Shown here in pieces: positions 1-13,260 of a DNA stretch of 64,000 bases. Made by a program: the position numbers and the translations under genes. Numbering within the stretch: position 1 is the first letter of the stretch; every line of letters begins with the position of its first letter. This DNA comes from Rhodocyclaceae bacterium. GTDB taxonomy: Bacteria > Pseudomonadota > Gammaproteobacteria > Burkholderiales > Rhodocyclaceae. The notes under the pieces are model-generated. The model made no database searches, was not told the origin of the DNA, and worked only from the letters and a program-made list of their open reading frames with translations. The stretch lies in NCBI GenBank assembly GCA_019455325.1, contig JACFMQ010000001.1, forward strand, positions 631,071-695,070. The letters are read 5' to 3'.

Positions 1-1347
1 GCGCTCGCCGGCGACGCCGCCGCGCGCAGGGCGGTCTCCGCCGCGCTGCTGAAGGTGCGCGAAGGCTTCCCGGCCTTCGTGAACGCCAGCCCGTCGGACG
101 ACGAGAAAAAGCACCTGGCCACGCTGGAAAGGACCGTCGCCGCCTATGAGGCCGCGCTGGCCGGCGGCAGCCGCGTGCCGGCGGCCGACGAGGAGGCCGC
201 CAGCGCCGCGCTGGCCGGCATCCGCGACGCGCTGGCCGAGCGCCGCAAGCGCGGCGCCGACGCCGTCGAGGACGCCATCTGGTCGCTGTCGCTGCAGGTC
301 GGCGGCATCATGTTCGCCACCGGCCTGATCCTCGCCTTCTTCGGCCTGTTCGCCTTCTGGTTCGTCCGCTTCCGCGTGGCGCTGCCGCTCTCGGCGATCA
401 ATTCGACGATGACCGGGCTTTCCGGCGGCGACACCGGCGTCGACGTCCCATTCACCGCCAAGCGCGACGAGGTCGGCGAGATGGCCCGCGCCGTGCAGAT
501 CTTCAAGGACAACGCCATCGCCAAGGGAAAGATGGAAGTCCAGAAGCAGCAGGTGACCCGCGACATCCAGGAAACCACCCGGGAGCTGGCGCAACTGACG
601 GTCACCGCCCGCGGCGCCACCGGCGAGCAGGCTTCGGCCACGTCGAGCATCTCGGCGGCCACCGAAGAGCTGAGCGTGAGCATCGACCACGTCGCCGAGA
701 ACGCCGAGCGGGCGCTGGACGCGACGCGCGAAACCGTCGACGCGGTGAAGCAGGGCGAAGTCGCGGTCAAGGAGACGATCGCCGTCATGGAGCAGACCGC
801 CGACCTCGTCGGCCAGGCCCGCGACAAGGTCGAGGAGCTTGCCCGCGAGAGCGACCGCATCCACGAGATCGTCGCCATCATCCAGAGCATCGCCAAGCAG
901 ACCGACCTGCTGGCGCTCAACGCCTCGATCGAATCGGCGCGCGCCGGCGAGGCCGGCCGCGGCTTCGCCGTGGTCGCCGACGAGGTGCGCAGCCTGGCCG
1001 AGAAGACCAATGCCTCGGCGCTCGACATCGGCAGCATCCTCGAACAGATCCAGCGCCGGATGGGCGACGTCACCAGCGAGGTGGCCAGCGCCTCGGACAA
1101 GGCCGGCGAAAGCGCCGCGCGCTCGCGCACCGTCGGCGACGCGCTGCTGCAGATCGACCGGCGCGCCGGCATGGTCGCCAGCGCCATGGCCGACATCGCC
1201 GACGCCTCCCGCGAGCAGAGCACCGCCGGCCGCGACATCGCGCAGAAGGTGGAGATGGTCGCCACCTCGTCGGAGACGATCAGCACCCAGATCAACCGCA
1301 TCGACGAACTGATGCGACGCCTGAACAAGAGCACGACGAGCATCTGA
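1..1347 (+). CDS. Methyl-accepting chemotaxis protein, 5' end outside window
   Basis: Membrane chemoreceptor that would signal to CheA/CheW. The reading frame is open from base 1, so the true start and part of the sensor domain lie upstream; a GTG at 55 is only an internal candidate. In the visible 448 residues a hydrophobic membrane segment lies near residues 95-122, followed by a HAMP-like linker and a long helical signalling domain. The conserved hairpin tip is clear ([20 protein letters not shown], then [18 protein letters not shown]). It ends 10 bp before the hydrogenase small-subunit gene and points the same way, so it is probably co-transcribed with the H2-sensor genes. There is no C-terminal CheR-tethering pentapeptide. 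The family call is certain; the ligand is unknown. Confidence 0.95.
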
Positions 1348-1357
1348 GAACCCGACC

Positions 1358-2320
1358 ATGAACGCACCCGAAAACCGGCCCCGGCCCCTTTCGCTGCTCT
1401 GGCTGCAGTGCGGCGGCTGCGGCGGCGACAGCATGTCGCTGCTCAACGCCGCCTCGCCCGAGCCGCACGAGCTTTTCGCGCAGCTCGGCGCCGAGCTGCT
1501 CTGGCACCCTTCCCTGTCGAACGGCTCGCCCGCGGAGCACGACGCCCTGCTCGAATCGATCGTCGCCGGCGAGCGAGCGCTCGACCTGCTGCTGGTCGAA
1601 GGCGCCATCGTGCACGGCCCGGAGCACACCGGCATGTTCGACACCCGCCGCGGGCGGCCGAAGAAGGATCTCGCCGCCGCGCTCGCCCGCCAGGCCGGGC
1701 ACGTCGTCGCCGTCGGCACCTGCGCCGCCTTCGGCGGCATCGCCGCCGAAGGCGCGCTGCAGGGCAGCGGCCTCCAGTTCACCGGCAAGCGGCCCGGCGG
1801 CCTGCTCGGCGCGGAATTCCGCGGCCGCGCCGGTCTGCCGGTGATCAACCTCGCCGGCTGCCCGGTGCACGAACAGGTCATCACCGGCACGCTGCTCGCG
1901 CTGGCCGCCGGGCAGGCGCCGCTGCTCGACGAGTTCAACCGCCCGCTCGACTGGTTCGGCATGACCGTGCACCAGGGCTGCACGCGCAACGAGTACCACG
2001 AATACCGGGTCGAGGAGACCGACTTCGCCGAGCGCGGCTGCCTGTTCTTCTTCAAGGGCTGCCACGGCCCGCTGACCGACGGCCCCTGCAACAAGGTGCT
2101 GTGGAACGGGCGCTCGTCGAAGCCGCGCGCCGGCGTCCCCTGCTTCGGCTGCACCGACCCGACCTTCCCGCAGCCTCATCCCTTCTTCGTCACCCGCGAC
2201 ATCGAGGGCATACCGATCAGCCTGCCCAAGGGCGTCAGCCGCGCCCACTACATGGTGTACAAGGGCATGGCCGCGGCCGCCGCGCCGGATCGGCTGAAAC
2301 AGCGGCAAACCACGATCTGA
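1358..2320 (+). CDS. hoxB: Sensor-type [NiFe]-hydrogenase small subunit (HoxB/HupU-like)
   Basis: Electron-transfer subunit holding the Fe-S clusters of an H2-binding [NiFe] hydrogenase. The 320-residue protein begins almost directly with the proximal-cluster motif (LQCGGCGGDS, residues 16-25) and has no Tat signal peptide, so it stays in the cytoplasm, as regulatory hydrogenases do. Further cluster cysteines are visible in GTCAAFGG, NLAGCPVHEQ, HQGCTRNEYHEY, GCLFFFKGCHGPLTDGPC and PCFGCTDPTFP. There is no C-terminal membrane anchor. It lies 10 bp before the large subunit and is followed by kinase and receiver genes. The absence of a signal peptide and the neighbours favour an H2 sensor (group 2-type, HupU/HoxB); a cyanobacterial-type cytoplasmic uptake enzyme is a less likely alternative. 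Confidence 0.88.
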   Translation: MNAPENRPRPLSLLWLQCGGCGGDSMSLLNAASPEPHELFAQLGAELLWHPSLSNGSPAEHDALLESIVAGERALDLLLVEGAIVHGPEHTGMFDTRRGRPKKDLAAALARQAGHVVAVGTCAAFGGIAAEGALQGSGLQFTGKRPGGLLGAEFRGRAGLPVINLAGCPVHEQVITGTLLALAAGQAPLLDEFNRPLDWFGMTVHQGCTRNEYHEYRVEETDFAERGCLFFFKGCHGPLTDGPCNKVLWNGRSSKPRAGVPCFGCTDPTFPQPHPFFVTRDIEGIPISLPKGVSRAHYMVYKGMAAAAAPDRLKQRQTTI

Positions 2321-2330
2321 AGACGCCGCC

Positions 2331-3860
2331 ATGACACGCCGGATCATCCGCGAACTGCCGCTCAACCGGGTCGAGGGCGACCTGGAAATCCGCATCGAAC
2401 TCGAAGGCCGGCGCATCGTCGACGCCTGGAGTTCCGGCACCCTGTACCGCGGCTTCGAGAACCTGATGATCGGCCGCGGCCCACTCGACGGGCTGGTCAT
2501 CACGCCGCGCATCTGCGGCATCTGCAGCACCACCCACCTGATGGCCGCGGCGCGCGCCCTCGACCGGATCGCCGGCGTGCCGCCGCCGGCCAACGCCGTG
2601 CGCGTGCGCAACCTGGCGCTGATGGTCGAGACCTGCCAGAGCGACCTGCGCCAGTCGATCCTGATGTTCATGCCGGACTTCGCCATTCCCGCCTACGCGC
2701 CGCACCCGCTGCACGCGGAGGCCGCCGCGCGCTACGCGCCGGTGCAGGGCGGCCGCTGCATCGAGGCCGTGCGCGAAACGCGCAGCCTCCTCGAAATCAT
2801 CGCCATCCTCGGCGGCCAGTGGCCGCACAGCTCGTTCATGGTACCGGGCGGCGTCACCTACGTGCCCAACCTGGCCGAGCTGAACCAGTGCCTCGGCATC
2901 CTGCGCCGCTTCCGCAGTTGGTACGAAAGGACGGTCCTCGGCTGCACGCTGGAACGCTGGCAGGCGATCCGCTCGGTCGACGAACTCGAAGCCTGGCTGG
3001 CCGAGCGCGCGGAACACCGCGACGGCGACGTCGGCTTCCTGCTGCGCTTCGCCGGCGCAGCCGGCCTCGCCGGCCAGGGGCGCGGCCACGGGCATTTCCT
3101 GTCCTGCGGTTCGCTCGACGTGCCCGCGGGCAGCGCGGTCCAGGGCGTCGACGGCATGCTCGTCGCCGCCGGCTTCCTCGCCGCCGACGGCGAGCGCCGG
3201 ACCTTCGACCAGTCGCAGATCGCCGAGCACGTCGCCGCCTCCTGGTACGCCGACGGCGGCGCCCCCAGGCACCCGTTCGACGGCGAGACCCGGCCCCAGG
3301 CCACCGGCGCCGACGGCCGGAAATACTCGTGGTCCAAGGCGCCGCGCTATGCCGGCCTGCCGGCCGAGACCGGCCCGCTGGCCGAACGCCTGGTCGCCGG
3401 CGACCCGCTGTTCGCCGATTGCCTGCGCGTGCGCGGCGCCGATCTGGTCGGCCGCCAGCTCGCCCGGCTGACCCGGCCGGCGACGGTGCTGGCGGCGATG
3501 GAGACCTGGCTGCGGGAGCTGGTCGAGAACCTGGCGCAGCCGTTCTACGAGACCGTGCCGCCGCTCCGGGAAGGGCGCGGCATCGGGCTCATCGAGGCGG
3601 CGCGCGGCGCCCTCGGCCACTGGGTCGAGATCGACGACGGCCGCATCAGCCGCTACCAGATCGTCACGCCCACCGCCTGGAACGGCTCGCCGCGCGACGA
3701 CGCCGGCGTGCGCGGCCCCTGGGAGGAGGCGCTGGTCGGCCTCGACGTCGCCGACATCGACCACCCCTTCGAGGCCGGGCACGTCGTCCGCTCCTTCGAC
3801 CCCTGCCTGGTGTGCACCGTCCACGTCGTCGGTGCCGACGCCAACCCCTTTCGCTGCTGA
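2331..3860 (+). CDS. hoxC: Sensor-type [NiFe]-hydrogenase large subunit (HoxC/HupV-like)
   Basis: Carries the NiFe active site that binds H2. The 509-residue protein has the N-terminal RVEGD and RICGICSTTH (L1) motifs and the C-terminal DPCLVCTVH (L2) motif, giving the two CxxC pairs that ligate nickel and iron. Only 11 residues (VVGADANPFRC) follow the terminal His. Regulatory hydrogenase large subunits are usually described as ending at this point without a cleaved extension, so this short tail, together with a maturation-protease gene 9 bp downstream, is unusual. Context (kinase, receiver and HD-GYP genes in the same chain) supports an H2-sensing role. Fine classification among group 2 hydrogenases needs a phylogeny. 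Confidence 0.88.
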   Translation: MTRRIIRELPLNRVEGDLEIRIELEGRRIVDAWSSGTLYRGFENLMIGRGPLDGLVITPRICGICSTTHLMAAARALDRIAGVPPPANAVRVRNLALMVETCQSDLRQSILMFMPDFAIPAYAPHPLHAEAAARYAPVQGGRCIEAVRETRSLLEIIAILGGQWPHSSFMVPGGVTYVPNLAELNQCLGILRRFRSWYERTVLGCTLERWQAIRSVDELEAWLAERAEHRDGDVGFLLRFAGAAGLAGQGRGHGHFLSCGSLDVPAGSAVQGVDGMLVAAGFLAADGERRTFDQSQIAEHVAASWYADGGAPRHPFDGETRPQATGADGRKYSWSKAPRYAGLPAETGPLAERLVAGDPLFADCLRVRGADLVGRQLARLTRPATVLAAMETWLRELVENLAQPFYETVPPLREGRGIGLIEAARGALGHWVEIDDGRISRYQIVTPTAWNGSPRDDAGVRGPWEEALVGLDVADIDHPFEAGHVVRSFDPCLVCTVHVVGADANPFRC

Positions 3861-3869
3861 GAACACGGC

Positions 3870-4298
3870 ATGGCCGACACAGCGGTGATCTGTCTCGGCA
3901 ACCGCTACGTCGCGGCGGACGCGCTCGGCTGCCGCGTCCATGACTGGCTGACGGCGCGCGCCGTGCCCGGCGAGGTGGACGTCGTCGACGGAGGACTGTG
4001 CGGGCTCGACCTGCTGCGCCTGATCGAGAACCGCGCCCGGGTCGTCTTCGTCGACGCCGTCGCCGGCAGCGGCGACCCGGCGCGCACGCTCATCCTCGAC
4101 CGCGAGGCCATCGCCGCCCACGCCGGCACCTACGGCCACGGCGCCGGCCTGCCCTATCTCCTGCGGATGCTGCCGGCGCTGCTGCCGCCGCCGCTGCCGG
4201 AAATCGTCCTCGTCGGCCAGGAAGGCGAGGCCGACGCGCCGGCGGTCCGCCGCATCGCCGAGCGCAGCCTGGAGATCGCCCGCCATGGTCTCGTCTGA
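3870..4298 (+). CDS. HyaD/HupD-family hydrogenase maturation protease
   Basis: Predicted nickel-dependent endopeptidase that trims the C-terminus of a [NiFe]-hydrogenase large subunit after metal insertion. The 142-residue protein shows the family pattern: LGNRYVAADALGCRVHDWL at the N-terminus (conserved GN..D.G), VDGGLCGLDLL in the middle and VVFVDAVAGSGDPA further on, matching the three positions that carry metal-binding acidic residues. The last 14 bases overlap the start of the histidine kinase gene. It is next to a large subunit whose tail is only 11 residues, so it may process that tail, act on another hydrogenase elsewhere, or be a retained relic. It is shorter than typical HyaD (about 160-195 residues). 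Confidence 0.78.
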   Translation: MADTAVICLGNRYVAADALGCRVHDWLTARAVPGEVDVVDGGLCGLDLLRLIENRARVVFVDAVAGSGDPARTLILDREAIAAHAGTYGHGAGLPYLLRMLPALLPPPLPEIVLVGQEGEADAPAVRRIAERSLEIARHGLV

Positions 4299-6390
4299 GC
4301 CCTCCCCGCCGGCCGACGAGCGAAGCGCGCTGGTCGCCGAGAACGCGGCGCTGCGCGCCGAGATCCGCGTCGCCCGCCAGGCCGCCGAGATCACCACGCA
4401 GATGGTCGTCGAACAGTTCGAGAAGACCGAGGCGATGAAGCACCGGCTGTGGGAAGCCAACGACGAGCTGACGGCCATCGTCGAGTCGACGACGATCGGC
4501 ATCGCGCTGCTCAAGGACCGGGTCTTCGTCAAATGCAACGGCAAGGTCAACGCGCTGTTCGGCTACGACGCCGACGAGCTGGTCGGCAAGAGCGCGCGCT
4601 GCCTCTACCCGGACGAAGCGAGCTACGCTGCCATCGGCGACGGCTATCGCCGCCTGGCCCAGGGCGAGCGTTTCCGGCAGATCATCCAGTTCGTGCGCCG
4701 CGACGGCAGCCTGTTCTGGGCGCGGGTGAACGGCTGCGCGCTCTCTGGCGACCTGTCGCGCGGCTCGGTCTGGATGTTCGAGGACGTCACCGCCGAGCAC
4801 GAGGCGGAAAAGGCGCTGCGCGAGGCGCGCGAGATCGCCGAGCGCGCCGAGCGGGAGCTGCGCAGCAGCTACGCCGAGCTGGAGGAGGCCAACCGCCGCC
4901 TGCAGGCGCTGGACCAGCTGAAGTCCGATTTCCTGTCCTCGGTCTCGCACGAGCTGCGCACGCCGCTGACCTCGATCCGCGGCTTCACCCAGTTGATCGG
5001 CCGCGAATTCGGGCGCAGCTTCGCGCCGCTGGCCGAAGCCGACCCCGGCCTGCGCAGGAAATCCTCGCGCATCGAGGAGAACATCGGCATCGTCCTCAAG
5101 GAGTCCGAACGGCTCACCCGCCTGATCAACGACGTGCTCGACCTGGCCAAGATCGAGTCCGGCAAGACCGAATGGCACGACGCCACGATACGGGTCGCCG
5201 ACTGGCTGCACGACGCCGCCCGCGCCGCCGCCGGCCTGTTCGAGCACAAGCCGGAACTCCGCCTGCGCATCGACCCGGCGGACGCCCTGCCGCCCTTCGT
5301 CGGCGACGCCGACCGGATGCTGCAGGTGCTGGTCAACCTGCTGAGCAACGCCGTCAAGTTCACCGACCGGGGCGAGGTCGCGATCCGCGCCTTCGTGAAC
5401 GACGCCGGCATGATCCAGATCGACGTGCGCGACAGCGGCGTCGGCTTTCCGCAGGAAGAGGCGGAAACGATCTTCGACAAGTTCCAGCAGGCCCGGCAGG
5501 GCGACACCCTGCACGACCGCCCGAAGGGGACGGGGCTCGGCCTGGCCATCTGCAAGGAGATCGTCGAGCGCCACGGCGGCCGCATCTGGGCGCGCTCCGA
5601 GCCCGGCCGGGGCAGCGTCTTCTCGCTCACCCTGCCGCCGGCCGCCGACGGCCGGGCCGCCCCCGATGCGTCCGCGGAACCGGGCGCGAGCACCGGATCG
5701 GCAGCGGGGGCCGACCGCGAAGCGGAAGGCGCCGGCCCGCCGGCCGGCAAGCGGGTGCTCGTGGTCGACGACGATCCGGGCGTCCGCGACTACTTCAGCC
5801 AGTTGCTGCAGGAACAGGGCTACGAAGTGATCACCGCCGCCGACGGCGAGGCCGCGCTGGCCGCGGCGCGGGCGCAGCGGCCGGTCCTGATCACGATGGA
5901 CCTGGCGATGCCGGTGATGGACGGCCGCGCGGCGATCGCCCGCATGCGCGAAGACCCGCTGCTGCGCGACATTCCGATCATGGTGATCTCCGCGCTGCCG
6001 GGCTGGGAAACGGCCGGCGGCAACCTGGCGATGAGCAAGCCGCTCGACGAGGCGCGCTTCGTCGACAACATCGAGCGCCTGCTGCGCCAGCCGCCGCCGC
6101 GGGAAAGCGGGAAGAAGCTCCGCTTTCTCGTCATCTACGACGAACCGCCGGCGCCGACGCTGGCGCCGAACGATTTTTCCGCGGCCTGCGAGGTCGGCTT
6201 CTGCACCGTCGCCGACCTGCAATCCCGCATCCGGGACGGCTTCCACGGCATGGTGGTGGTGCCGGCGGACCTCATCGGCAAGGTCGACATCGCCTTTCTC
6301 GGCGCCTCGCCGTCGCTGGAAGTGATGATCGTGCCGGTGCCGGGGAATGGCGAGAAAGCGGCGCTGCCGCTGCCGGCGGCGGGCCGCTGA
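4285..6390 (+). CDS. PAS hybrid histidine kinase, HoxJ-like position
   Basis: Soluble 701-residue kinase, probably the partner of the H2 sensor. Order: N-terminal coiled coil (about 15-60), PAS domain (about 60-170), helical linker, HisKA with phospho-accepting His222 in SHELRTPL, HATPase with the N box NLLSNAVKFT (351-360), DSGVGF and GTGLGLAICKEI (416-426), a Pro/Ala-rich linker, and a receiver domain (490-600) with DDD acidic cluster, Asp539 and Lys585. Residues about 610-701 form an extra unassigned segment that resembles a degenerate second receiver. No membrane segment is visible. HoxJ/HupT kinases bind regulatory hydrogenase through their PAS region; the hybrid receiver tail here is a departure from the simple HoxJ layout. 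Confidence 0.9.
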   Translation: MVSSEPSPPADERSALVAENAALRAEIRVARQAAEITTQMVVEQFEKTEAMKHRLWEANDELTAIVESTTIGIALLKDRVFVKCNGKVNALFGYDADELVGKSARCLYPDEASYAAIGDGYRRLAQGERFRQIIQFVRRDGSLFWARVNGCALSGDLSRGSVWMFEDVTAEHEAEKALREAREIAERAERELRSSYAELEEANRRLQALDQLKSDFLSSVSHELRTPLTSIRGFTQLIGREFGRSFAPLAEADPGLRRKSSRIEENIGIVLKESERLTRLINDVLDLAKIESGKTEWHDATIRVADWLHDAARAAAGLFEHKPELRLRIDPADALPPFVGDADRMLQVLVNLLSNAVKFTDRGEVAIRAFVNDAGMIQIDVRDSGVGFPQEEAETIFDKFQQARQGDTLHDRPKGTGLGLAICKEIVERHGGRIWARSEPGRGSVFSLTLPPAADGRAAPDASAEPGASTGSAAGADREAEGAGPPAGKRVLVVDDDPGVRDYFSQLLQEQGYEVITAADGEAALAAARAQRPVLITMDLAMPVMDGRAAIARMREDPLLRDIPIMVISALPGWETAGGNLAMSKPLDEARFVDNIERLLRQPPPRESGKKLRFLVIYDEPPAPTLAPNDFSAACEVGFCTVADLQSRIRDGFHGMVVVPADLIGKVDIAFLGASPSLEVMIVPVPGNGEKAALPLPAAGR

Positions 6391-6416
6391 CGAATACAGG
6401 AGAAGGAACAGGCATC

Positions 6417-6800
6417 ATGGGAAACCCCGCCAAGATCGCCATCGTCGACGACGAGGCCCACATCCGCGTGCTGCTCGAACAGACTCTCGAAGACCTCGAC
6501 GACGCGCCGGAAATACTGACCGCCGTAAACGGCGCCGAGGGCCTGGCCCTGATCGAGCGCGAGCGGCCGCGCCTGGTCTTCCTCGACGTGATGATGCCGC
6601 TGATGAACGGCTACGAGGTCGCCGCCGCGGTGCGCGCAAACGACGCGCTGGCAGCGACGACGATCGTCATGCTCACCGCCAAGGGGCAGGAATCGGACCG
6701 CACGCGCGGGCTCGGCGTCGGCGCCCACCACTTCATCACCAAGCCCTTCGACCCGGACGAAATCCTCGAACTCGCCCGCGACATCCTCGGCGCGCCGTGA
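6417..6800 (+). CDS. Single-domain response regulator (CheY-like)
   Basis: A 127-residue receiver with no output domain, so it must act by protein contact or as a phosphate relay. It keeps the acidic pair DDE at 11-13, the phospho-acceptor Asp57 in FLDVMMP, Thr87 and Lys109 in FITKPFD. The ATG at 6417 has an AGGAGAAGGA ribosome-binding site, which fixes the start. The gene ends in a GTGA overlap with the downstream HD-GYP gene, implying translational coupling. It is the natural recipient of phosphate from the upstream hybrid kinase and could pass the H2 signal to the HD-GYP protein or to the flagellar motor. Confidence 0.93.
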   Translation: MGNPAKIAIVDDEAHIRVLLEQTLEDLDDAPEILTAVNGAEGLALIERERPRLVFLDVMMPLMNGYEVAAAVRANDALAATTIVMLTAKGQESDRTRGLGVGAHHFITKPFDPDEILELARDILGAP

Positions 6801-8518
6801 GCCACGCCCACCTCCTCCGCGCCGGCTGGCTGCGCGAACAACTGGCCCTGGGCCTGGCGCTGCTGCCCGAGGGCGGCGGCCTGGCGCTGTGGATCGACGG
6901 CGCGCAGGTCGCCGGCGCGGGCGCGGCGGTGCCGGACGAGGCGTCGGCGGCGGCGCTCCGCTTCCCGGTCGTTCTCGACCACCGGGAGATCGGCAGCCTC
7001 CTGCTGTCGCCGCCGGGCGCGGCGGGCGAAGGCTGCGGCCGGCTGCTCCAGCACGCCCTGCAGGGCATGCTGAAGAGCGAGCAGGCCCGCCGCGCCGTCG
7101 CCGGCGAGACCATCCGCGCCTACCGCGAAATGGCGGCGCTGCAGCGCGCGGTCGGCGAATTCAACCGCTCGCTGCGGCCGGACGCCGTCGCCGCCGCCCT
7201 GCTCGGCGAATTCGACGACGCGCGCACGGCCGGCGACATGGGCGCCGTCTTCCTCCACGACGACGAAGGCGGACTGCACCTGGCCCAGACCTTCGGCGAC
7301 GCGGCGGCAGCGGTCTTCGGCCGCCTGCGCGACGAGGCGCTGTTCGCCGAAATGCTCGCGCGCCCGGCCGGCAACATCGCCAACCAGCTCGCCGAATCGC
7401 CGGCCTGGACGCCGCGCCTCGAACCGCTGCGCGCCCTGCTCTGGCTGCCGCTGGTCGCCCACGGCAACTGCCTCGGCTGGCTGGTCCTCGGCGCCACGGA
7501 CGGCGAAGGCTTTTCCGCCGCCGACCTCAAGCGCGGGCAGGTCCTCGCCTCGGTCGCCGCCGGCGCCCTGCGCAACGCGCAGCTCTACATGGCCGAGAAG
7601 GCGATGTTCGACTCCTTCGTGCGCGTCATCGCCACCGCCATCGACGCCAAGTCGCCGTACACCGCCGGCCACTGCCGCCGCGTCCCGGAGATCGCGCTGA
7701 TGATCGCCGAGGCCGCCCACCGGGCCGAGGACGGCCCGCTCGCCCGGTTCCGGCTCGACGACGACGAACGCACGGCGCTCGAAATCGCCGCCATGCTGCA
7801 CGACTGCGGCAAGGTGGTGACGCCCGAATGGGTCGTCGACAAGGCCAGCAAGCTCGACGCCATCGTCAACCGCATCGAGCTGATCGCCCTGCGCTTCGAG
7901 ATCCTCCGCCGCGACGCCGGCGAACGGGCGAGGCAGGAACTCGACGACGATTTCGCCTTCCTCGAAAAGTGCAACCGCGGCGGCGAATCCATGGACCCGG
8001 AACAGCTCGCCCGCCTGCGGCGCATCGCCGGCCGCCGCTGGCGCGACGCCGGCGGCGAGGAACGGCCGCTGCTCACCGAGAACGAGGTGTACAACCTGTC
8101 GACGCAGCGCGGCACGCTCAACCCGGAAGAGCGGAAGATCATCGAGGACCACGCCGTGCATACCATCAACATGCTGTCCCAGATCGCCTTTCCGCGCCAT
8201 CTGCGGCGCATCGTCGACTACGCCGGCGGCCACCACGAGCGCATGGACGGCAAGGGCTACCCGCACGGACTCGACGCCGCCCGGCTGCCGGTTCCGGCGC
8301 GCATCCTGGCCATCGCCGACATCTTCGAGGCGCTGACCGCGCCGGACCGCCCCTACCGCCAGTCCGGCGGCCTCGACTGGGCCATCGGCGTCATGCGCCG
8401 GATGAAGGACGACGGACACATCGACGGCGACCTCTTCGACCTCTTCATCGCCGAGCGGATCCACCTCGACTACGCCGCCCGGCACCTGGGCGGCGAGGCT
8501 CGGAACGAGCGGCGGTGA
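6797..8518 (+). CDS. GAF/HD-GYP domain protein, predicted c-di-GMP phosphodiesterase
   Basis: Predicted cytoplasmic enzyme that hydrolyses c-di-GMP. The GTG start at 6797 overlaps the preceding stop by 4 bp and gives 573 residues. Residues about 110-265 are GAF-like. The HD-GYP domain (about 270-560) has HD at 335-336 (AAMLHDCGKV), a His at 452, HHE at 479-481 and GYP at 487-489 (DGKGYPHGL), so the metal ligands look intact. An insertion of roughly 80 residues separates the HD helix from the rest of the domain, compared with canonical members. It is the last gene of the H2-sensor chain and the most likely output: H2 status would set c-di-GMP and hence motility or attachment. The inferred link is untested. 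Confidence 0.92.
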   Translation: MSHAHLLRAGWLREQLALGLALLPEGGGLALWIDGAQVAGAGAAVPDEASAAALRFPVVLDHREIGSLLLSPPGAAGEGCGRLLQHALQGMLKSEQARRAVAGETIRAYREMAALQRAVGEFNRSLRPDAVAAALLGEFDDARTAGDMGAVFLHDDEGGLHLAQTFGDAAAAVFGRLRDEALFAEMLARPAGNIANQLAESPAWTPRLEPLRALLWLPLVAHGNCLGWLVLGATDGEGFSAADLKRGQVLASVAAGALRNAQLYMAEKAMFDSFVRVIATAIDAKSPYTAGHCRRVPEIALMIAEAAHRAEDGPLARFRLDDDERTALEIAAMLHDCGKVVTPEWVVDKASKLDAIVNRIELIALRFEILRRDAGERARQELDDDFAFLEKCNRGGESMDPEQLARLRRIAGRRWRDAGGEERPLLTENEVYNLSTQRGTLNPEERKIIEDHAVHTINMLSQIAFPRHLRRIVDYAGGHHERMDGKGYPHGLDAARLPVPARILAIADIFEALTAPDRPYRQSGGLDWAIGVMRRMKDDGHIDGDLFDLFIAERIHLDYAARHLGGEARNERR

Positions 8519-8619: not shown

Positions 8620-8889
8620 ATGCGAACCACCCAGCAAATGAGCATCACCCTTCCCAATGACATGGCAGACGCGGTGAAGGCCAAGGTACGAACCGGCGAG
8701 TACGCCAGCGAAAGCGAAGTGATCCGGGACGGACTGCGGGCGCTGATGGCACGGGACCGCGCCGTGGAAAGCTGGCTGCACAACCAGGTCGGCACCGCCT
8801 ATGACGCCCTGAAGGCCGATCCATCCCGCGCCGTTACCGCTGATCAGGTACGCGCCCGTTTGGCCGCCGAACGCGACAAGATGCGATGA
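8620..8889 (+). CDS. parD: ParD-like ribbon-helix-helix antitoxin
   Basis: An 89-residue antitoxin. The N-terminus (QMSITLPNDMADAVKAKV, then GEYASESEVIRDGLRAL) is the typical ParD/CopG ribbon-helix-helix DNA-binding fold; the charged C-terminal part would wrap and neutralise the toxin. The start follows a good AAAGGAG site, and the stop overlaps the toxin start by 4 bp (ATGA). A 19-bp palindrome lies just upstream and probably mediates autorepression. Confidence 0.88.
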   Translation: MRTTQQMSITLPNDMADAVKAKVRTGEYASESEVIRDGLRALMARDRAVESWLHNQVGTAYDALKADPSRAVTADQVRARLAAERDKMR

Positions 8890-9215
8890 ACCATCGCGTC
8901 GTCTTCAGCCCGGAAGCCCAGGAGCAACTTGCCGAGCTTTACTGCTACATCGCCGAGGCGGCATCGCCCGACATTGCCGCGCGATACACCGAGGCAATCG
9001 TGAGCTACTGCGAGAGCCTGCATACATTCCCCCTTCGCGGCACCCGGCGCGACGACGTACGGCCGGGCTTGCGCATCACGAACTACAAGAAGCGGGCAGT
9101 GATCGCCTTCGACGTGGACGCCGAGGTGGTCTCCATCATTGGCGTCTTCTACGGCGGGCAGGACTACGAAACGATCCTGTGTGACGACTCTGGCGACAGC
9201 GGCACGGGGCATTAA
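8886..9215 (+). CDS. parE: ParE/RelE-superfamily toxin
   Basis: A 109-residue partner of the upstream antitoxin. The pattern VVFSPEAQEQLAELYCYIAE, then RYTEAIVSYCESLHTFP, RGTRRDDVRPGLR, and YKKRAVIAFDVD...VSIIGVFYGGQDYE matches ParE toxins, which block gyrase; the fold alone cannot exclude a RelE-like ribonuclease. Its last 4 bases overlap the end of the convergent regulator gene. The C-terminal tail (DDSGDSGTGH) looks nonessential. Confidence 0.88.
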   Translation: MNHRVVFSPEAQEQLAELYCYIAEAASPDIAARYTEAIVSYCESLHTFPLRGTRRDDVRPGLRITNYKKRAVIAFDVDAEVVSIIGVFYGGQDYETILCDDSGDSGTGH

Positions 9216-12200
9216 GACGCCCCCGCCCGCGCCAGACGCTCGTCGACCAGAGCCAGCCGCGGCAGCAGCCCGAAGCTGCCGAGCGTCTCGGCAAGCGTCC
9301 GCGCCCGTTCGAGGTGGCGCCGCGCCGCCGCCGCATCGCCGCCCGCCTCGCTGGCGAGCGCCTTCTGCCGCAGGAGATCGGGCATGCAGTAACGGTCGCC
9401 GCCGTTCTCCGCCAGCGCCAGCGCGCGGCCGGCGACGGCGTCGACCAGCGACCAGTGTCCCAGCGCCTCGAAGATCAGGCCGACGAACCACAGCGCCGTG
9501 ACCGGGCTCAGGCGCGCCGCCGCCGCGAACTCGCGGTGCATCGAGATCAGCCGGAAGGAGGCGCGCATGCGCAGCCGCCCCTGCCGCGCCCTGGCCCACA
9601 GGCCGAACAGCGTGTTGTAGGCCCGCCAGAGCGGGAAATGCCACTGCGTGGCGAGATCCAGCCCTTCGGCGGCGAGGCGTTCCACTTCCTCGGGGCGGTC
9701 GAGGACCAGATGGACGCTCGCGGCCATGGTCAGCGCGAAGCACAGGGCGTGCGTGTGGCCGGCGCGGCGCGCCTCGGCCACCGTCAGCCCGGCCGCTTCC
9801 ACGGCCGCCGACGCGGCGCCGCTGAAGGCCAGGTTGGTTCCCTTGAGCGCACCGCAGGCGATCACCGGACTGTCGGCCGAATAGCGCAGCCACTCGCGGG
9901 CGGGAATCTCCCTGCCGATGCGGATGGCTTCCTCCAGGTTGTTCAGCGAGCGGGCGAAATCCCCGCGCCAGAACATCAGGCTGCCGAAGCCGTAGCACAC
10001 CATCATGCGATGGGCGGGCGTGCTCGCCAGCTCGTCGAGGCGGTTCATGATCGCCAGCGTCTCGCGCCGCCCCTGCGGGATGGCCGCCGCCATGCCGCAC
10101 AGCGCGCGGATCAGCGTTTCGTCCGGCAGCGCGCCGGCAACGCACGCCACGGTCGGCGCGAAGAAGCGCTGCGCCTCCTTGGCGCCGTAGCCTTCCGCCA
10201 TCAGCGTGGCGAAGCCGGCCAACAGCTCCAGCTCGATCCGGTCCTTCTGCGCCAGCGGCTCCTCGTCCTTGGCGGCGGCGGCGAGCGCCCGTATCGCGGC
10301 TTCCTTGGCCTCGCCGGCGAACTCGTCGAGATAGGCCACCTCGGCGGCCTGCCACCAGAAATCGCGCGCCTCGCGCCAGGCGTGCGCCGCCTCGAAATGC
10401 CAGGCGACGTTGGCCGGCGCGGCGTCGACCCGCTGCGCCAGCCAGCGCGCGGCCCGGCGGTGCCAGTCGCGCCGCTGCCCCGGCGGAATGCTCTCGTAGG
10501 CGCAGTCGCGCAGCAGGGCATGACGGAAGGCGTGCCCGCCGGCGCCCGTGCGGCGGCTGATCGCCAGCGCCTCGGCGCGTTCCAGGGCGAGCGTCGGGTC
10601 CTGCGCCGGCAGCAGCGCGCGCAGCGCCCCCTCGCCGAACGAGACGCCGAGCACCGAAGCGGCCTGCAATACCGGCTTGTCCGGCCCGAGGCGGTCGAGC
10701 AGCCCCTGCAGCACGCCGAACAGCGAGGTCGCCGAGACCGCCCGGTCGCACGCGCTGCGGGCGATGTATTCGGCGTGCAGCGGCAGGCCGTCGCTCATGC
10801 GGGCCAGCTCCGCCCGCCGGCCGGCGGCGATGACGCCCTTCTCGTCGATGGCCGCGATCAGCGCCTGCGACTCCGCCAGGCTCAGCGGCCGCAGCGCCAC
10901 GCGGGAAAGCGCCGCGCCCTCCGGCGGCTTGACGCCGGCCGACGGGCGGCAGGCGAGGACGGTCAGGACCGGCGCCGCGGGCGGAAACTGCAGCGCGCTC
11001 TGCAGCAGTTCCCGCGTCGCCTCGTCGGCCCAGTGCAGATCGTCGAACACCAGCAGCGCCGGCCGCTGCCTGCGGGACGGCGCGAACAGGAGCGAGAGCA
11101 GCGCGCTGACCACCCGGCGCCCCGAGGCGCCGTCGACCCGGGCATCCCCGTCGGCGGCGAGGAGCGTGCGCAGCGGCGCGCGCAGCGCCCGCCGCCGCTC
11201 GGGCGGAAAGGAGCGTTCCAGCCAGCCGTCGAGGCCGGCGGCGCCGATGCGCTCGCGCAGTTCGTTGCGCAGCCCGCCCAGCGACACGTGGCGCAGCTCC
11301 GGACGGTGCCGGACCCAGCGGATTTCGCCGCCGGCGGCGGCGTGTTCCCGCGCCAGCTCCGCCAGCAGGCGGGATTTGCCGGTTCCCGGCAGGCCGCTCA
11401 CTTCGATGAAGACCGTGCGCCCCTCGCGCTCGGCCGCGGCCAGCGCCGCCGCCAGCTCGGCCGACTCGTGCCGGCGGCCGACGAAGGGCGTGGAAAACGC
11501 CGTCGGATGACGCGCGCCGCCCGCGTCGGGCGGGGCCGCCAGCCGGCACGGCGCGTGCTCGCCGGCGAGCCCGGTGAAACGGCGGCGGGGCAAGGGCTCG
11601 AAGCGGCAGTGCGGCCCCAGTTCGCCGGCCAGGGATTCGAGGGTGACGACCTCGCCCGGCTCGCCGCACAGCGCGAGTTGCTGGGCCAGCGCCGGCAGCG
11701 CGCTGTCGGCGACGGACTGCCGGGCCTGCGGGCCGATCAGCGCCTTGCCTTCGCAGATGCCGATGCGGCTGCGACCGAACGCCGGCATGGCGGCGATCGC
11801 CAGCGCCGCCTGCAGGGCCCGGCGCGGCGCCTGCTCGCCGTCGTCGGCCAGGCCGAAGACGGCGCCGAGCGCCAGCCCGGTGGTCGGAAAGCGTTGCCCC
11901 ATCCACAGGGCGAGGATGGCCTCGAACGCCGCGTCGAGCGGCGCCAGGCGGCGCTCCGGCTCCAGCACCTCGGCTTCGTCGCGCACGTCCGGTTCCGCCA
12001 GGAGAACGACCACCCGGCGCACCTCGCGCGGCTCGGCGCCGGCGGGGCGCAGCGCCGCCGGCGCCGAGCCGGGGCCGGCCCCGGCGCTCGCGCGTATCTG
12101 CCGGAGCAGCGCGCGCGTGGCTTCCTCGGGCCGGACGCCGATGTTCCGCGCCAGCGCCGCTTCCAGCGCCTCGTACTGCCGCAGGGCGGCGGCGGCCTGG

Positions 12201-12862
12201 CCGTCGGCGGCGAGGAGGCGCATCAGGCGGCGCGTCGCCGCCTCGTCCTCGGGCGCCAGCGCCACCGCGCGGCGCGCGAAGGTGAGCGCGTCCGGCCGTT
12301 CGCCGAAGCGCTCGTGGCAGTCCGCCAGCCGCTCGCACAGGGAAAGCGCATGCCGGTGCAGCGCCTCGCGCCGGTGGCGCAGCCATTCCTCGAACTCCGG
12401 GCAATCGGCCAGCGAAAAGCCGGCCATGAACTCGCCGCGGTAGAGGCTTTCCGCCGCCTCCATCCGGCGCAGGCACGGCGCGCAGCGCGACGCCGAACCG
12501 ACGCCGTCGCAGCGCGGCGGTGAGGCCAGGAAGATCGTCACGTCGGCGCGTTCGGCGCATTCCGCGCTGATCGAGATGGCGTCGCGCCGCACCAGCAGGC
12601 AGGGGTGCGCGGCGTCGTTGTCGCCGAGGACGGCGCGCAGGTTGGCCAGGACCTGGCGCAGGTTCGCGCGGTGGCCGGGCGAATCGGGCCAGAACAGGCC
12701 GCCCAGCGCCTCGCGCGGCAGCCAGCGGTTCTCGACCGCCAGGTAGGCGAGCAGCGCCCGCCCCTTCTCGTAGGCCGGCGGCGTCGCCGGACGGCCGTCG
12801 ATGGTCAGCCGCCAGCCGCCGAGCAGCGCGAGAAAAGGGCCTGCCGTCGGCGCCTCATCCAT
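9212..12862 (-). CDS. Giant SARP-like regulator: HTH-BTAD, cyclase-like segment, AAA+ ATPase, TPR
   Basis: A 1216-residue predicted transcription activator. Residues about 10-100 resemble an OmpR-type winged helix as in SARPs (LGGWRLTIDGRP, then LPREALGGLFWPDSP, RANLRQVLANLR), followed by a bacterial transcriptional activation domain (about 100-258). Residues about 280-441 look like a class III nucleotide cyclase domain whose metal-binding aspartates are lost (RIGICEGKALIG and CGEPGEVVTLESL are still recognisable). A STAND-type ATPase follows with Walker A GLPGTGKS (490-497) and Walker B LLVFDDLHWAD, then a long TPR-like helical region to the end. No C-terminal LuxR helix-turn-helix is present. 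An ATG at 12862 is preferred over an upstream TTG at 12913. It is divergent from menC; targets are unknown. Confidence 0.8.
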   Translation of the reverse strand: MDEAPTAGPFLALLGGWRLTIDGRPATPPAYEKGRALLAYLAVENRWLPREALGGLFWPDSPGHRANLRQVLANLRAVLGDNDAAHPCLLVRRDAISISAECAERADVTIFLASPPRCDGVGSASRCAPCLRRMEAAESLYRGEFMAGFSLADCPEFEEWLRHRREALHRHALSLCERLADCHERFGERPDALTFARRAVALAPEDEAATRRLMRLLAADGQAAAALRQYEALEAALARNIGVRPEEATRALLRQIRASAGAGPGSAPAALRPAGAEPREVRRVVVLLAEPDVRDEAEVLEPERRLAPLDAAFEAILALWMGQRFPTTGLALGAVFGLADDGEQAPRRALQAALAIAAMPAFGRSRIGICEGKALIGPQARQSVADSALPALAQQLALCGEPGEVVTLESLAGELGPHCRFEPLPRRRFTGLAGEHAPCRLAAPPDAGGARHPTAFSTPFVGRRHESAELAAALAAAEREGRTVFIEVSGLPGTGKSRLLAELAREHAAAGGEIRWVRHRPELRHVSLGGLRNELRERIGAAGLDGWLERSFPPERRRALRAPLRTLLAADGDARVDGASGRRVVSALLSLLFAPSRRQRPALLVFDDLHWADEATRELLQSALQFPPAAPVLTVLACRPSAGVKPPEGAALSRVALRPLSLAESQALIAAIDEKGVIAAGRRAELARMSDGLPLHAEYIARSACDRAVSATSLFGVLQGLLDRLGPDKPVLQAASVLGVSFGEGALRALLPAQDPTLALERAEALAISRRTGAGGHAFRHALLRDCAYESIPPGQRRDWHRRAARWLAQRVDAAPANVAWHFEAAHAWREARDFWWQAAEVAYLDEFAGEAKEAAIRALAAAAKDEEPLAQKDRIELELLAGFATLMAEGYGAKEAQRFFAPTVACVAGALPDETLIRALCGMAAAIPQGRRETLAIMNRLDELASTPAHRMMVCYGFGSLMFWRGDFARSLNNLEEAIRIGREIPAREWLRYSADSPVIACGALKGTNLAFSGAASAAVEAAGLTVAEARRAGHTHALCFALTMAASVHLVLDRPEEVERLAAEGLDLATQWHFPLWRAYNTLFGLWARARQGRLRMRASFRLISMHREFAAAARLSPVTALWFVGLIFEALGHWSLVDAVAGRALALAENGGDRYCMPDLLRQKALASEAGGDAAAARRHLERARTLAETLGSFGLLPRLALVDERLARAGAS

Positions 12863-13260
12863 GCGCGTCACCCGCTGCACCGTCGCGTTCCGTTCCCGCG
12901 CGCCCGCCGGCAAGCGCGCGGAACGCCGCCGTGTCCGGTTCGATCACCATCGCTTTCCCTCCCCCAACAAGCGTCGGCGACAGGCCCTGCGGTCTTTGCG
13001 CCGCGTGCCCGGCATGCCGGACGAAGTCGCTCTCCGCGTCGCTCGCGGGGGACTTGCGCGGCATGTTCACCGTTGTTCAATAAGATGCGATTTTGCCCAT
13101 AATGGCGCCAATTGGCGATGCCGCCGAAGACGACGATCCTTGAAGCAAGACGAATGCGCGCAAACCTGGAATCTGCAGAAGACCCCGGCAGCCGCCCGCC
13201 CCGGCGCATGCAGCGGGACGGGCGGGCCGATCGCCGGCGCGTTCTTTGCCGCTCCTGACG
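12863..13260. promoter_or_regulatory. Divergent intergenic region with 12-bp palindrome (13106-13117)
   Basis: About 400 bases between the SARP-like regulator and menC contain no convincing gene. The AT-richer part has a perfect palindrome CGCCAATTGGCG at 13106-13117, just downstream of a -10-like CATAAT at 13098-13103 (possible -35 TTGTTC at 13073, 19-bp spacing). It could be an operator for a plus-strand promoter reading towards menC. Confidence 0.4.

Follow-up and report, generated by a model that had tools for sequence, protein, structure and literature searches.

We analysed the beginning of a 64,000-nucleotide stretch of DNA (the window; G000:C9:631071-695070, on contig JACFMQ010000001.1) from the 4.46 Mb genome of a Rhodocyclaceae bacterium. 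Seven plus-strand genes follow one another there, encoding a methyl-accepting chemotaxis protein (MCP), the small and large subunits of a [NiFe] hydrogenase, a maturation protease, a hybrid histidine kinase, a single-domain receiver and a GAF-HD-GYP protein (Table 1). Consecutive genes are separated by 10, 10, 9 and 26 bp or overlap by 14 and 4 bp. An initial annotation of this DNA had described such a tight, co-directional chain, and the coordinates, the gaps and the Pfam domains (all matches on the chain proteins above curated cut-offs) bear it out. The catalytic residues to which it referred are likewise intact: HD, HHE and GYP in the HD-GYP domain (within HDCGK, HHERMDGKGYP and ADIFEAL), the receiver aspartate, and the hydrogenase motifs RICGIC and DPCLVC. 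The small subunit has no twin-arginine translocation (Tat) leader, in agreement with the proposed cytoplasmic [NiFe] pair. Neither the open reading frame (ORF) list nor Pfam revealed a gene for a DNA-binding regulator in the cluster, so the chain indeed lacks the NtrC-type regulator that the annotation had reported missing.

Table 1. Genes of the chain at the start of the window, the complete chemoreceptor gene, and loci with Rieske domains in a related clade. Positions are window positions unless a locus is given.
Feature	Position	Strand	Evidence and remarks
MCP, 3' part in window	1..1347	+	MCPsignal 3.6e-36; 549 aa whole; first 101 residues precede the window
MCP, whole gene	L010:769-2418	+	start lies 303 bp upstream of the window; final gene of the hupSLCD operon
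[NiFe] hydrogenase small subunit, 320 aa, no Tat leader	1358..2320	+	Oxidored_q6, NiFe_hyd_SSU_C (Pfam)
[NiFe] hydrogenase large subunit, 509 aa	2331..3860	+	NiFeSe_Hases (Pfam); 11-residue tail after DPCLVCTVH
Hydrogenase maturation protease, HycI/HupD superfamily, 142 aa	3870..4298	+	PF01750 (HycI) 1.9e-9; TIGR00072 6.5e-17
Hybrid kinase, N-terminal coil-PAS-HisKA-HATPase-REC, 701 aa	4285..6390	+	Pfam PAS models, HisKA, HATPase_c, Response_reg
Single-domain receiver, 127 aa	6417..6800	+	alignment to six relatives
GAF-HD-GYP protein, 573 aa	6797..8518	+	HD_5 1.3e-38, HD, GAF_2 2.3e-7 (Pfam)
Loci with N-terminal Rieske [2Fe-2S]	L133, L143, L054-L056, L058, L137, L140, L141, L144, L148, L150, L151		next to 2c-type hydrogenases

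The order small subunit, large subunit, protease, hybrid kinase, receiver and GAF-HD-GYP protein recurs in related genomes. Among 199 family genomes, 11 (the window's own included) encode a large subunit with at least 58% identity to that of the window, and 12 others encode one with 47-51%. A close clade, with large subunits at 69-78%, comprises the window, G003, G153, G078, G183, L077 and G520. L077 is a metagenome-assembled genome (MAG) of Methylococcaceae whose contig ends inside the kinase gene, and G520 (72%) was found by a gene-order search of 399 genomes. The gene order is the same in all six complete loci of this clade, the window included, and the G520 locus has one extra hybrid kinase. 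This recurrence argues that the chain did not arise by chance.

Among the signalling parts of the module, the receiver is conserved best, at 78-87% to six relatives. The hybrid kinase has a further part of about 100 residues C-terminal of its REC domain. In L048, L049 and L052, from the next branch, and also in L101, the receiver and the HD-GYP domain form one polypeptide, which supports signalling from receiver to HD-GYP. The two proteins are in the chain as well in L090, one branch further out. The GAF-HD-GYP protein is a predicted phosphodiesterase of cyclic di-GMP (c-di-GMP). The annotation had proposed c-di-GMP breakdown, and possibly taxis, as the output. The module proved conserved, with receiver and HD-GYP fused in some relatives; the signal flow, its direction and the effect on motility are what we infer.

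Phylogenetic analyses placed the hydrogenase outside group 2b, the group of the regulatory enzymes HoxBC and HupUV. A contig scan of the collection matched at least 590 stretches with at least 581 relatives, of which the best 80 were used. Duplicates (L009, L010, L084, L091, L128, L131 and L145) and the group-3 locus L013 were excluded from all counts, and the trees were built without 2d or 2e references. A tree of 113 large subunits contained nine 2b rows, two 2a rows and a signalling-linked lineage of 99 rows (support 98). Two groups make up this lineage, a 36-row clade (support 100) and a 63-row group with the window (82). More careful trees were built from selections of 73 or 71 rows out of a larger set (L181 not among them). 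In these, the joint lineage had support of 99/97, of 98/96 without the outgroup and of 100/99 with both subunits, and the window's own clade had 92/90, 96/90 and 100/100. Group 2b formed one clade without the window in every tree built. Group 2a formed a separate clade of six rows in the careful trees; in the tree of small and large subunits it joins the signalling lineage (99/88), which is distinct from it (100/99).

The 36-row clade includes nine Methylobacter loci and that of Ideonella dechloratans, which has a protease gene and a GGDEF-EAL gene. The part of PMC12810054 that lists HydDB classes for Methylobacter reports only 1d, 1e, 2c and 3d. Because 2c is the sole group-2 class among these, we anchored the 36-row clade as 2c. 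By these tree anchors, the window enzyme lies in a clade sister to the 2c-anchored clade.

Residue signatures separate the lineage from 2b in the same way. The small subunit of the window has CxxD at the proximal cluster, lysine in place of the fourth medial cysteine, and a distal histidine. Across the 99 lineage rows, the proximal position is Asp in 92 by pattern and in two more by eye and Glu in three, with one row truncated and one without a small subunit; it is Cys in 9/9 2b and Asn in 6/6 2a rows. The fourth medial position is Lys in 98/98 readable lineage rows and in 6/6 2a rows, and Cys in 9/9 2b rows. The distal histidine is present in 98/98 readable lineage rows, and the 2a rows have Gln (6/6). 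A proximal Asp has also been named for group 1h, according to a passage of PMC7174314.

The C-terminus of the large subunit differs as well. Between 4 and 24 residues extend beyond DPCxxCxxH in 93 of the 99 lineage rows (none in three, pattern missing in three), and none do in 9/9 2b rows. In 74 of the 99 lineage loci, a downstream protease could be recognised. For a 2b enzyme, HoxC of C. necator, the relevant passage of PMC9100943 states that it is not processed. We therefore rejected the window enzyme as a 2b sensor on the basis of the trees, the C-terminal tail with its protease, the proximal Asp and the medial Lys, with the limit that an approximately unbiased (AU) test, weighed below, does not firmly exclude a joint clade. 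The initial annotation had seen a HoxBC/HupUV-type enzyme with new wiring, and this does not hold: the enzyme is outside 2b in all trees, and the genome has HoxABC and HoxJ separately on contig C31.

The nearest solved chains are those of Huc, 7uur for the small subunit (4e-77) and 7uus for the large subunit (8.1e-117). Three [3Fe-4S] clusters are described for Huc, assigned partly through the fourth residue, in the cluster section of PMC10017518, and a medial [4Fe-4S] cluster for the regulatory hydrogenase (RH) in the corresponding lines of PMC5665086. From these assignments we predict a medial cluster of the [3Fe-4S] type, a proximal cluster that is Asp-ligated or [3Fe-4S], and a distal [4Fe-4S] cluster in the window enzyme.

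The chemoreceptor has a different history from the sensor genes. Directly upstream of it, on the same strand and beyond the window edge, lies hupS-hupL-hupC-hupD, for a group-1 uptake hydrogenase; hupD and the MCP gene overlap by 4 bp, and the hupS product carries a twin-arginine leader. The MCP has hydrophobic stretches near residues 31-63 and 196-229 and an MCP signalling domain, and the genome encodes CheA-type proteins. A search of the 199 family genomes with its N-terminal 224 residues found orthologs in six: the window genome, G003, G183, G083, G138 and G029. The ortholog follows hupS-hupL-hupC-hupD directly in all six, and the six proteins have in common the invariant stretch FDSGLARRIDLLG, just past the first hydrophobic segment. 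In G083 and G138 there is no match to the window large subunit at E 1e-40, and in G029 the sensor is on a different contig from the MCP ortholog. Conversely, this MCP ortholog is missing from G153, G078 and G520, which do have the sensor. Since the MCP always follows hupD, twice without a group-2 match, it belongs with the uptake hydrogenase and not with the sensor. On this ground we rejected the circuit of the initial annotation, in which the MCP would belong integrally to the sensor; by gene linkage, the MCP is tied to the membrane uptake hydrogenase. An annotated MCP gene also lies two genes upstream of hupU, near a second hydrogenase operon, on a Bradyrhizobium guangxiense plasmid (L076:1373-3484).

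An in-frame TAG splits the upstream hupL at L009:16999-17001 (G000:C9:628998-629000), and the frame is unbroken in G003 and G183. It may be a real defect, a polymorphism or an assembly error. A second group-1 hydrogenase of the genome is encoded on contig C7. A promoter scan of L010:600-9800 found no promoter-like site, and the same stretch has three terminator-like sites against 4.7 expected from shuffled sequence. The roughly ten genes from the hup operon through the HD-GYP gene may form one transcript, for which the promoter result is weak evidence.

Signalling genes accompany the hydrogenase across the wider lineage. Same-strand genes within 7.5 kb downstream include a kinase or c-di-GMP gene in 92 of the 99 lineage loci and a GGDEF, EAL or HD-GYP gene in 33. 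Neither kind was found in seven loci, in which the stretches examined were 3.4-11.1 kb long. The 36-row clade has 13 loci in which a Rieske motif shares its frame with the kinase (five loci) or the GGDEF-EAL protein (eight loci). The motif is in a separate frame in L139 and in a small separate frame in L146. Both proteins tested with Pfam, one of each kind (L133 and L143), have Rieske above the cut-off; Pfam found no Rieske in the Ideonella GGDEF-EAL protein or in the window kinase. The N-terminal regions of kinases and cyclases in this clade also match one another. Together with the Rieske fusions, this hints that electrons may carry the signal in this lineage.

Elsewhere in the genome, contig C31 encodes HoxA-HoxB-HoxC together with an ortholog of HoxJ; the alignment, at 54%, spans residues 3-442 of 447 and includes one TGA, and the open frame has 494 aa. 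The window kinase matches HoxJ over residues 163-444 only, at 28%. With HoxA-HoxBC and HoxJ on C31, transcriptional control by H2 would be covered without the window cluster. Searches of the genome matched four flagellins, six PilZ proteins, six CheA-type proteins and 40 MCPs (39 above cut-off), so that by sequence match the machinery for taxis and for a response to c-di-GMP is present.

In our interpretation, to which we give a probability of about 0.5, the cluster encodes a putative cytoplasmic H2 sensor whose output is c-di-GMP breakdown, and the uptake hydrogenase operon in front of it has a chemoreceptor of its own. H2 would be oxidised at the [NiFe] site of the cytoplasmic enzyme, and electrons, or a conformational change, would travel along the Fe-S chain to the distal cluster and then to the PAS region of the docked hybrid kinase. 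The kinase would pass phosphate to the separate receiver, which would set the activity of the GAF-HD-GYP phosphodiesterase and thereby change c-di-GMP. We suppose that c-di-GMP would fall on H2 and that the cell would lean to motility; the sign is a guess, made because low c-di-GMP is usually linked with motility. The MCP would probably monitor the uptake hydrogenase at work, for energy taxis to H2, and would not be under the control of the sensor, and the HoxBC-HoxJ-HoxA set elsewhere would be left to run hydrogenase transcription. The fullest version of this scheme is a two-armed H2-seeking device. One arm would be the uptake hydrogenase with its dedicated chemoreceptor, by which H2 oxidation would drive taxis; in the other, a [NiFe] sensor of a distinct lineage with a proximal Asp and a [3Fe-4S]-type medial cluster would send electrons into its partner, in some relatives by way of a Rieske domain, the HD-GYP protein would lower c-di-GMP, and cells would be released and swim on H2. 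As a whole we regard this version as rather doubtful.

One result tempers the placement outside 2b: when the window's 38-row clade was forced together with 2b, the AU test did not reject the arrangement for the large subunit (p 0.335) and was borderline for both subunits (0.0509). Several observations weigh against the sensor interpretation. A kinase without a c-di-GMP gene is found in 59 of the 99 lineage loci, so the kinase may have other targets. Among the 2b control loci, c-di-GMP genes lie within 7.5 kb in two of nine (L066 and L068), and an HD-GYP gene lies about 1.4 kb behind the genome's own HoxC (2b; L184:3701-6026), with HoxJ further downstream; these three loci are all from the window's genus. 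The proportions given for the lineage differ from those of the whole lineage because they rest on the best 80 out of at least 581 relatives. Finally, the sensor adjoins hup structural genes in four of the six complete close-clade loci (window, G003, G183 and G520), and none were found near the sensor in the stretches examined of G153 and G078.

This last linkage fits equally well an alternative in which the sensor mainly controls expression of the adjacent uptake hydrogenase, as a second, differently tuned HoxBC, through c-di-GMP or an unlinked regulator. In L096, a Nitrospirae MAG, the same kind of sensor hydrogenase is followed in one chain by a kinase, a REC-AAA regulator and then a group-1 hydrogenase with hyp genes, and group-1 hydrogenase genes are likewise present in the stretches examined of L103, L104, L116 and L117. 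However, the window cluster has no DNA-binding gene, and the genome already encodes HoxA-HoxBC and HoxJ. The sigma-54 promoter pattern is also not enriched in L009, the stretch with the hup operon (28 matches against 31.7 expected). On the strength of the hup linkage and L096 we keep control of the hydrogenase as a serious, if less probable, explanation.

A single circuit, in which the MCP would partner the sensor hydrogenase directly or serve as its output, is unlikely. The MCP lies 10 bp before the sensor genes in the window, precedes them on the same strand in G183 and is beside them but divergent in G003. However, its constant place behind hupD in six genomes, three of them with the sensor absent from the match list or on another contig, and the three sensors without this MCP ortholog speak against such a circuit.

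The cytoplasmic hydrogenase could also be mainly a metabolic, Huc-like (2a) uptake enzyme, with signalling genes that merely read the redox state. Its nearest solved relatives are Huc chains, 2a joins the signalling lineage in the two-subunit tree, and the medial Lys is common to both. However, apart from the kinase the chain contains no gene for an electron carrier, most relatives have kinase or c-di-GMP genes beside them, and the lineage is separate from 2a. We consider this explanation quite improbable. The annotation had likewise set the enzyme apart from catalytic uptake hydrogenases; this stands in that the large subunit has its own clade and does not group with 2a, and is qualified by its nearest solved relative being an uptake enzyme of group 2a. 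It is very improbable that the HD-GYP protein acts on another cyclic dinucleotide or only binds one: its best solved relative, 5z7c, is a 3'3'-cyclic GMP-AMP (cGAMP)-specific HD-GYP phosphodiesterase and the next-branch L049 and L052 have HQE for HHE (so that their activity may differ), but the window protein has HD, HHE and GYP intact and 4mcw is its next best solved relative.

Two small genes lie directly 3' of the HD-GYP gene (window 8620-9215) and resemble, by eye only, a ribbon-helix-helix (RHH) antitoxin and a ParE/RelE-type toxin. On the minus strand at 9212-12913, an ORF of 1233 residues resembles, again by eye only, a large ATPase regulator whose N-terminal part is of the transcriptional-activator kind.

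Group 2c was reportedly defined by Greening in 2016. Among the closest known systems is this group, which appears in the HydDB class list of PMC5037454 as 'Diguanylate cyclase-linked (putative)'. Group 2c and the window cluster both combine a cytoplasmic-type [NiFe] pair and its own protease with a signalling protein of the PAS type; c-di-GMP is the proposed output of each, and they have Asp and Lys at the clusters in common. However, the window enzyme is in the sister clade, outside the Methylobacter/Ideonella clade, and its output would be a kinase, a receiver and an HD-GYP protein rather than GGDEF-EAL, with no Rieske domain and no diguanylate cyclase neighbour. HoxBC/HupUV (2b) resembles it as a cytoplasmic H2 sensor without a Tat leader and with a PAS kinase partner; the window enzyme departs from it in its C-terminal tail with a protease, in the Asp and Lys of its clusters and in having no NtrC-type regulator. 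Huc, the 2a enzyme of Mycobacterium smegmatis, is nearest among solved sequences and has Lys for the fourth medial Cys, but Huc-type enzymes have Asn at the proximal and Gln at the distal position, where the window has Asp and His; Huc is described as a respiratory enzyme in the portion of PMC10017518 cited above. The same HydDB list names an MCP-linked [FeFe] group C2 as 'Chemotactic (putative)' (PMC5037454). It has the idea of hydrogenase-MCP linkage in common with the window, but it is an unrelated enzyme class, and the window MCP is with a membrane [NiFe] uptake hydrogenase.

The proposal of the initial annotation that H2 serves as a c-di-GMP or behavioural cue was thus already in print, for 2c and for the MCP-linked [FeFe] C2. 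We found no report of an HD-GYP-linked or MCP-linked [NiFe] sensor in the open-licence literature. As far as that literature shows, the HD-GYP output through a kinase and a receiver, the sister lineage together with its residue signatures, and a chemoreceptor that stays with hupSLCD are new.

c-di-GMP sets attached versus swimming life in many bacteria. If the proposed reading is true, H2 would not only fuel this organism but also serve it as a cue for behaviour. The lineage can be separated from 2b by features that can be mutated, namely the proximal Asp, the medial Lys and the C-terminal tail, and the Rieske fusions of the sister clade offer a handle on how a sensor hydrogenase signals its encounter with H2 to its partner. 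H2 taxis is on record for an archaeon, Methanococcus maripaludis (Brileya 2013, as cited in a passage of PMC4266047). In bacteria, it can be tested directly through the chemoreceptor that six genomes keep beside hupSLCD.

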